A stretch of 64,000 nt of DNA from Gavia stellata (Eukaryota; Chordata; Aves; Gaviiformes; Gaviidae). Below, in pieces: positions 25,001-25,833 of the stretch. The notes beneath the pieces are model-generated. The model had not been told where the DNA came from. It saw only the letters and a list, made by a program, of their open reading frames with translations, and made no database searches. The stretch covers positions 16,564,428 to 16,628,427 of the forward strand of contig NC_082610.1 of assembly GCF_030936135.1 (NCBI RefSeq), in the 5' to 3' direction. Both the position numbers and the translations under genes were made by a program. Numbering within the stretch: position 1 is the stretch's first letter; every line of letters begins with the position of its first letter.

Positions 25001-25833
25001 TCACTGTCCTTTTGACACACTTCTTAGTAAGGAAGGATGAAGACTTGATCTTATGAGTGACCGCGACTGGATGTCACGTTACAGGGACATTTTTCAGCCG
25101 CACCAAAGGTCTTCCTTAGATTTAGTTCTCAGGCACCAAACCGAAAGCTGTGCTGAACAGTTTATTCGGCTTCCAAAGATCTGAGGGATACGGCAAACCA
25201 GTCTTCTGTGAAACTTTACTCCATTACAGTCAGCGTTCTTGTTTTCACAAGAAATTTTACTGACTTTATAAACCGCACAGTATCAATAACTGCAGCCAAT
25301 ACACAAGTGCTGATTTTTATCTGATCTCTGATGTACTGAGCATATTCCCACTGCAACACGAAATAATCCAGGAGTGGATTTTTCTGGGCTGTATCACACC
25401 CCCTGTCTCCTAAGCAATGATGCACCAGAAGTTACTTTTATTCTACCTTAATTTCATCTGCTCACATTTGAATTTTACCCCTTTCTCCCCCCTTCTGTCC
25501 AGAAACAGCAGCACAAACCAGTCCCATCCCAACCCCAGCAGCACTGAGCGCTCCCACCCGTGCCAGAGGAGCAGCATCTCAGTGCAACCACCGCTCCCCG
25601 AGCCCCCGGGGCCAGAGCTCCCCTCTTCCCCCGGCACCACCGCTCCGAGAACCGCAACGCCCAGGCGGCGGCGAGGAGCGGCCTCTTCCCCAAGCCAGAG
25701 CCGCCCCCCCTGCAGCGCTGCCCCCGGGGCCGCTCAGCCCCGAGCGCCGCCCGCACCCCCTCACCTGGCCGGCGGCCTCCCGCGGGCTGGGCGCCGCCTC
25801 CAGCGAGCCGCCGCGGCGGGGCGCGGGGTGCAT
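13042..25833 (-). CDS. TPH1: Tryptophan 5-hydroxylase 1 (TPH1), complete, 11 exons
   Basis: Iron- and tetrahydrobiopterin-dependent enzyme that hydroxylates tryptophan, the rate-limiting step of serotonin and pineal melatonin synthesis. Exons in transcription order: 25765-25833, 21888-22025, 20735-20918, 19198-19298, 18422-18489, 16689-16885, 16071-16206, 15434-15560, 14217-14312, 13515-13648 and 13042-13216. All have GT-AG borders and every phase joins. Counting from the conventional start MIEDNKEN (ATG at 22004) the protein has 444 residues. The iron ligands fall at His272 and His277 (HELLGH) and Glu317 (FFTVEFG), exactly as in human TPH1. The ACT regulatory domain ([12 protein letters not shown]) with a phosphorylatable Ser58 in [10 protein letters not shown] and the C-terminal tetramerisation helix (to KQLEV) are present. 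If exon 1 is translated from ATG 25833 the protein has 474 residues. No frame damage is visible. Confidence 0.96.
18901..18940 (+). repeat. Polypyrimidine C10/T16 run in TPH1 intron
   Basis: Ten C followed by sixteen T, in the TPH1 intron between the exons at 19198-19298 and 18422-18489. Simple sequence. Confidence 0.8.
25765..25833 (-). CDS. TPH1: Probable coding first exon of TPH1 (N-terminal extension)
   Basis: An open frame of 23 codons runs from an ATG in the CpG island to a strong donor (CAG then GTGAGG at 25764). It ends in phase 0. Exon 2 opens in phase 0 after a good polypyrimidine acceptor (TTTCAATTTAG), with Leu-Asn-Lys-Ser-Asn before the conventional Met. The peptide begins [15 protein letters not shown]. 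Human TPH2, as I remember it, begins MQPA, carries [10 protein letters not shown] around Ser19, and has LNKPN at the matching join. The extension therefore looks like the ancestral TPH N-terminus rather than UTR. The start codon has G at -3 and C at +4, a moderate context. Confidence 0.7.

Follow-up and report, generated by a model that had tools for sequence, protein, structure and literature searches.

A candidate TPH2-like coding first exon of TPH1 in the bird Gavia stellata

Introduction

A close described counterpart of the feature considered here is the N-terminal tail of TPH2. Its phosphorylation site is given as Ser19 in the excerpted text of Xu et al. 2019 (PMC6470480), where phosphorylation is tied to 14-3-3 binding and stability, and is written as Ser16 in the excerpt of PMC11988947. 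In the portions of the respective papers that were available, the 46 additional residues of TPH2 are described as poorly understood in their role and as partly limiting purification (PMC5055035), and the TPH2 regulatory domain as not resolved, with cited work having the domain inhibit the enzyme (PMC9420949). Excerpts of further papers state that both TPH1 and TPH2 bind 14-3-3 once phosphorylated and that the proteasome is a major determinant of TPH1 stability (PMC11655531), and describe a switch formed by cAMP and 14-3-3 that acts on AANAT (PMC7010912). TPH1 is expressed in chicken hypothalamic cells, with NM 204956.1 as the chicken record, according to the available part of PMC6585609. A resource with a chicken pineal and retina time series (PMC7513311, as excerpted) places Tph1 among the chicken transcripts that are 3- to 30-fold higher at night.

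Xu et al. (PMC6470480) compared TPH genes in 70 vertebrates, 18 birds among them. The excerpted text of that study describes TPH1 of fish, amphibians and reptiles as ~39 residues longer at the N-terminus than TPH1 of mammals and birds, a statement that rests on an alignment of five representative species, and gives teleost TPH1a and TPH1b as 483 and 480 aa, respectively. The genes were extracted by means of protein queries from close species, chicken TPH1 among these. Since the long TPH1 N-terminus is reported, in this text, for fish, amphibians and reptiles alike, its inheritance in birds would be expected. No description of bird TPH1 with a first exon that is coding was found in the literature searched, a partial coverage made up mostly of titles and abstract openings, with annotated records outside its scope; the nearest printed statement encountered there was that of PMC6470480, as excerpted, on the ~39 extra TPH1 residues and their lack in birds. 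A long bird TPH1 form may already be present in gene catalogues.

Here we analyse a stretch of 64,000 nucleotides of the Gavia stellata genome (hereafter the window) that contains TPH1, the gene of the enzyme that makes serotonin in gut and pineal, TPH2 being its brain counterpart. The evidence base is one genome, considered at the level of sequence only, and on this basis we regard it as rather likely that TPH1 of this bird has its true first coding exon in the minus-strand segment 25765..25833, and that this exon is a homologue of TPH2 exon 1.

Results

The TPH1 gene of the window

The window holds an intact 11-exon gene on the minus strand, encoding 474 residues when exon 1 is counted, in which exons 3-11 join without a stop. 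Beyond the candidate exon 1, the gene comprises exon 2 (21888..22025; 46 residues, the first seven codons lying upstream of the human TPH1 start), exon 3 (20735..20918), exon 4 (19198..19298), exon 5 (18422..18489), exon 6 (16689..16885), exon 7 (16071..16206), exon 8 (15434..15560, with the donor ACA/GTGAGT), exon 9 (14217..14312), exon 10 (13515..13648) and exon 11 with the stop codon (13042..13216), all on the minus strand. The 474-residue product matches TIGR01270 (tryptophan 5-monooxygenase) over its full length, its 793.9 bits exceeding the cut-off of 705.5, and also matches the Pfam families ACT and Biopterin_H. Taken from MIEDN to where exon 2 ends, the product scores 57.5 bits against human TPH1 and 37.7-40.8 bits against TPH2 among PDB chains, and a separate TPH2 is present in the same genome, on C4; the gene in the window is nearer TPH1 than TPH2 and is TPH1. 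Pieces from a tblastn search of the window that fit the TPH1 exons show 58.6-100% identity to human TPH1, and the two lowest pieces (58.6 and 66.2% identity) extend past the exon ends.

Two other sequences were noted in the window, namely a GC-rich start exon of 39 residues at 51078-51194 on the minus strand, which we take to be SAAL1-like, and an RCC1-like sequence of the SERGEF type near 8300-8500. These neighbours presumably fit the gene order SAAL1-TPH1-SERGEF.

Layout of the candidate exon 1

The candidate exon 1 (25765..25833, minus strand) spans 23 codons and ends in phase 0, with Ser10 lying within RRGGSLE. The earlier note had described an ATG-started 23-codon frame with a strong donor, compatible in phase with an exon 2 whose own upstream codons are open to the acceptor, and this architecture is confirmed: the frame runs from the ATG at 25833 to 25765, where the donor CAG/GTGAGG is found, and exon 1 (25833-25765) joins exon 2 (22025-21888) in phase 0. 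Exon 2 starts at 22025, directly after TTTCAATTTAG, and reads TTA AAT AAG TCA AAT TAC, then ATG ATG ATT GAA GAT. The joined product thus contains LNKSN and then MMIEDN as the note had it, but the two are not directly adjacent as implied there, a Tyr sitting between them. At the exon 2 head the other two frames meet a stop in the first or second codon, and the probability that its seven codons are open is 0.54.

The ATG at 25833 has a G at -3 and is the sole ATG on the minus strand of 26100-25760. On the minus strand of 25500-26100, no ATG-to-GTRAG frame in phase 0 with 12-60 codons exists besides the one that it opens, and the frame is closed upstream by in-frame stops at 25911 and 25887. The openness of the frame was discarded as evidence. 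Exon 1 has a GC content of 87%, a 23-codon frame of this composition is open with a probability of ~0.83, and all three minus-strand frames are open across exon 1, so openness by itself carries no weight. GC-rich islands readily yield open frames rich in R, P, G and A, at this same probability, and this favours an alternative in which exon 1 belongs to a GC-rich 5' untranslated region of the usual kind and has a TPH2-like translation by chance; in light of the comparisons with TPH2 below, we consider such a coincidence very unlikely.

A GC-rich, CpG-island-like region comprising the putative promoter and exon 1 extends over 25500..26100, without an assigned strand, with a GC content of 0.78 in 25500-25999. 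Within it, a TATA-like CATAAAG, identified as a pattern only, lies at 25883..25889 on the minus strand and starts 56 nt upstream of the ATG, whereas TPH2 of the same genome has TATAAA 66 nt upstream of its ATG. A separate observation concerns GATTA at 25910-25914 (minus strand), ~20 bases ahead of the TATA-like box, which we take to be an OTX/CRX-like core; its relevance to the pineal is only a guess. A sigma-70/terminator scan and a repeat search of the exon-1 island were uninformative.

Resemblance to exon 1 of TPH2

Using PF00351 (35 matches), we located five aromatic amino acid hydroxylase genes in the genome (1.32 Gb, 1185 contigs); they are named by comparison with human sequences. That the genome is a bird's agrees with its feather-keratin matches, at least 150 in number among 376 candidates of which 150 were scored, with identities of up to 96% to a feather keratin. 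Exon 1 of TPH2 (C4, L011) has 35 codons, MQPA...GSFT, and a GTAAGT donor, with LNRSSSGKNEEKK at the start of exon 2, placing LNRSSSGKN at the junction in phase 0. The likeness to TPH2 claimed for exon 1 is borne out against this paralogue: TPH1 exon 1 has R-R-x-x-S with L and then an acidic residue after it (RRGGSLE), as does TPH2 (RRGFSLD), and the intron falls at the same site and in the same phase before LN[KR]. The layout of a coding exon 1 with a phase-0 intron directly before LN[KR] is encountered again in TPH1, provided that its exon 1 is indeed used for coding. Both exons start with M-x-P-A, and their local alignment covers ~18 residues with a score of 37, around a similarity core of ~9 residues. 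An end-to-end alignment of the whole N-terminus to TPH2 failed, with a 10-residue TPH2 stretch left without a counterpart in TPH1.

The score of 37 against the bird's own TPH2 is reached by 7 of 20000 residue shuffles, and the lower score of 29 against human TPH2 by 52 of 20000. When the island (25500-26100) is shuffled by dinucleotides, 305 of 3000 shuffles hold any ATG-to-GTRAG phase-0 frame and a single one reaches 37. Among 142 ATG-to-GTRAG frames from real sequence (L001-L008 excluded), four nested TPH2 exon 1 frames come first, followed by TPH1 exon 1 at 37 and then by a frame at 32. A broader control admitted any GT donor over 239 kb, with TPH2's own exon-1 frames dropped, L001-L008, L022 and L023 excluded, and L024 included, which had been chosen since an island there matched exon 1. 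Two of its 2132 frames reach 37, these being TPH1 exon 1 and an AT-rich frame at 46; at a GC content of at least 0.6, TPH1 exon 1 is the best of 171 frames and alone in reaching 37. The resemblance between the two first exons exceeds chance moderately, at odds that range roughly from one in some hundreds to one in some thousands, and it gains weight because exon 1 sits exactly at the place and in the phase predicted by homology.

Comparison with the human enzymes points in the same direction. Full-length human TPH2 (7wiy_B, residues 15-85) and the joined product (residues 6-69) form one unbroken alignment that spans the junction, pairing RRGFSLDS...LNKPN with RRGGSLEA...LNKSN of TPH1. The motifs RRGFSL and LNKPN, which the earlier note had given for TPH2, are indeed present in this human sequence, and the MIEDN start that it had given for mammalian TPH1 is that of human PDB 5l01. 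When the 30 residues ahead of MIEDN are added to the query, the score of TPH2 7wiy rises from 37.7 to 41.6 bits, while losses are seen for human TPH1 (57.5 to 55.5 bits), for 7qri, a fragment of TPH2 (40.8 to 38.9 bits), and for PAH chains (~3 bits). The 30-residue piece alone gave no PDB match at E values up to 10.

A warning comes from a genome search with 201 bases around exon 1, which returned two matches, exon 1 itself and one weaker island (L023, C20:251888-252024) whose DNA match to exon 1 and its flank spans 133 bases at 74% (E 2e-8). The ATG frame of the C20 island, MRPGCPPPAPRRGRWG, has APRRG in common with TPH1 exon 1 and lacks the SL[ED] core. The match is probably one of composition and the APRRG looks like chance, a sign that composition can produce some of the motif. 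Likeness between the 5' flanks of TPH1 and TPH2 at the DNA level (reached by 2 of 2000 shuffles, or 4 of 2000 with the exons added) was given no weight, because this unrelated-looking island matches exon 1 even better.

The C20 island, together with the one frame of the 239 kb control that outscores TPH1 exon 1, is what chance resemblance in untranslated sequence can draw upon. Against it, the score obtained by one of the island shuffles and seven of the residue shuffles is attained here at the very site, phase and junction that homology predicts, the head of exon 2 (LNKSN) is likewise TPH2-like, and the C20 frame is without the SL[ED] core. Homology to TPH2 exon 1 is the reading that we prefer.

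The N-terminal tails of the other paralogues provide further context, as a basic pair before Ser occurs in four of the five (TPH1, TPH2, TH and a TH2-like gene), the exon 1 of PAH not being located. A motif search of the plus strand over ~28 kb upstream of PAH exon 2 did not find PAH exon 1. PAH exon 2 itself (L013 near 8289, plus strand) opens in phase 0 with ESMYIEESS. Adjoining PAH on C4, near 62.59 Mb, is the gene that we call TH2-like; its N-terminal exon (L016:6793-6930, plus strand) contains MHAIDSLNRRGSLDSTREDG, a consensus-like RRxS site parallel to Ser40 of TH.

Use of exon 1 and a proposed mechanism

Exon 1 is probably a real and functional first exon, judging from its layout and its likeness to TPH2. 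The earlier note had proposed an ancestral N-terminus retained in birds, or at least in this one; an ancestral TPH2-type regulatory exon kept by TPH1 of this one genome is also the reading that we favour, and birds in general are an extrapolation from it. A scan for relatives with exon 2 found none in genome_contigs and viral_contigs, which hold bacteria, archaea and viruses only.

Homology could also hold for an exon that has lost its function. Exon 1 might be ancestral and transcribed but a relict, with the mRNA starting downstream of the ATG or with ribosomes using Met30/Met31, so that a short, mammal-like TPH1 is made. Such a relict would agree with the short form given for birds in the excerpted comparison (PMC6470480), with the A at -3 of the second in-frame start, Met31, and with a resemblance to TPH2 that is confined to the core of the tail. 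However, nothing is broken in the start, frame, donor, acceptor phase or R..SL core, a combination that neutral decay seldom preserves for long, and a transcript begun near a TATA-driven site, where we place the start, would have this ATG before any other. Neutral decay was simulated with 4000 runs at each level, the present sequence being assumed as the ancestor; the ATG, frame, donor and R..SL core survived together in 19% of the runs with 0.1 substitutions per site, in 3.9% with 0.2 and in 0.1% with 0.5; these rates leave room for an exon 1 silenced recently. On balance, we consider a relict unlikely.

For a functional exon 1, we envision the following sequence of events. Transcription starts ~30 nt after a TATA box. 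With a start at this distance from the TATA-like CATAAAG, the island promoter would yield an mRNA that begins upstream of 25833 and has the ATG at 25833 as its first AUG. Exon 1 would then be spliced to exon 2 at the phase-0 junction that TPH2 has too, and a tail of 30 residues, probably disordered and flexible, would come to lie before MIEDN. This tail would present an R-x-x-S site, Ser10, to PKA, CaMKII or another basophilic kinase, by analogy with TPH2, and phosphorylation of Ser10 followed by 14-3-3 binding could alter the stability and activity of TPH1, as extrapolated from TPH2 alone. Some ribosomes may skip the first AUG by leaky scanning and start at Met30/Met31, so that a short form would be made too.

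Carried further by analogy, birds might have on TPH1 the phosphorylation-controlled tail that in mammals belongs to TPH2 only, and night-time cAMP in the pineal might phosphorylate Ser10, recruit 14-3-3 and stabilise bird TPH1 in parallel to AANAT, the short mammalian TPH1 being a derived loss. We put this forward as a tentative and rather doubtful proposal; if the reading of Ser10 and 14-3-3 is true, the first and third steps of melatonin synthesis would be gated alike.

Discussion

A coding exon 1 in Gavia stellata would extend a known feature of TPH1 to birds, a group reported without it, and correct a published statement, since PMC6470480, as excerpted, denies the extension to birds. The discrepancy has a possible technical origin. 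The chicken TPH1 query of that comparison presumably starts at MIEDN. If so, a 23-codon exon upstream would escape extraction by the procedure that the available text of PMC6470480 describes. Should exon 1 be what we propose, at least one published comparison has worked with too short a bird TPH1, recombinant work on bird TPH1 may have used an enzyme without its regulatory tail, and the loss of the tail would fall in mammals and no longer in birds as well. Control of serotonin in bird pineal and gut by a switch known in mammals from the brain enzyme would also become testable.

Among known systems, TPH2 of the same genome is like TPH1 in its M.PA start, in RRGxSL[DE] with Arg four and three positions before the Ser, in its phase-0 intron and in LN[KR] at the opening of exon 2; RRGxSL[DE] and LN[KR] are likewise common to human TPH2 and TPH1 here. 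The two differ in length, with 35 codons in TPH2 exon 1 and 23 in that of TPH1, from which the 10-residue stretch is missing. They also differ in that phosphorylation is reported for Ser19 of TPH2 (PMC6470480, as excerpted), whereas Ser10 of TPH1 is recognised here by its sequence motif. TH (L019), with RRQSLIED and RRAVSELD in its N-terminal tail, and the TH2-like gene (L016), with RRGSLDS, also have a basic pair before Ser; RRQSLIED and RRGSLDS, however, show RR-x-S spacing as opposed to the RR-x-x-S of TPH1, and their exon layout is different. The long N-terminus of non-avian TPH1 belongs to the same gene and the same end of the protein, with ~39 extra residues compared with the 30 before MIEDN here, a likeness drawn from the description in the excerpted text of PMC6470480 and not from residues. 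Mammalian TPH1, finally, is the same from MIEDN onward, where the human protein begins (PDB 5l01), and the bird gene would differ from it in what precedes that point.
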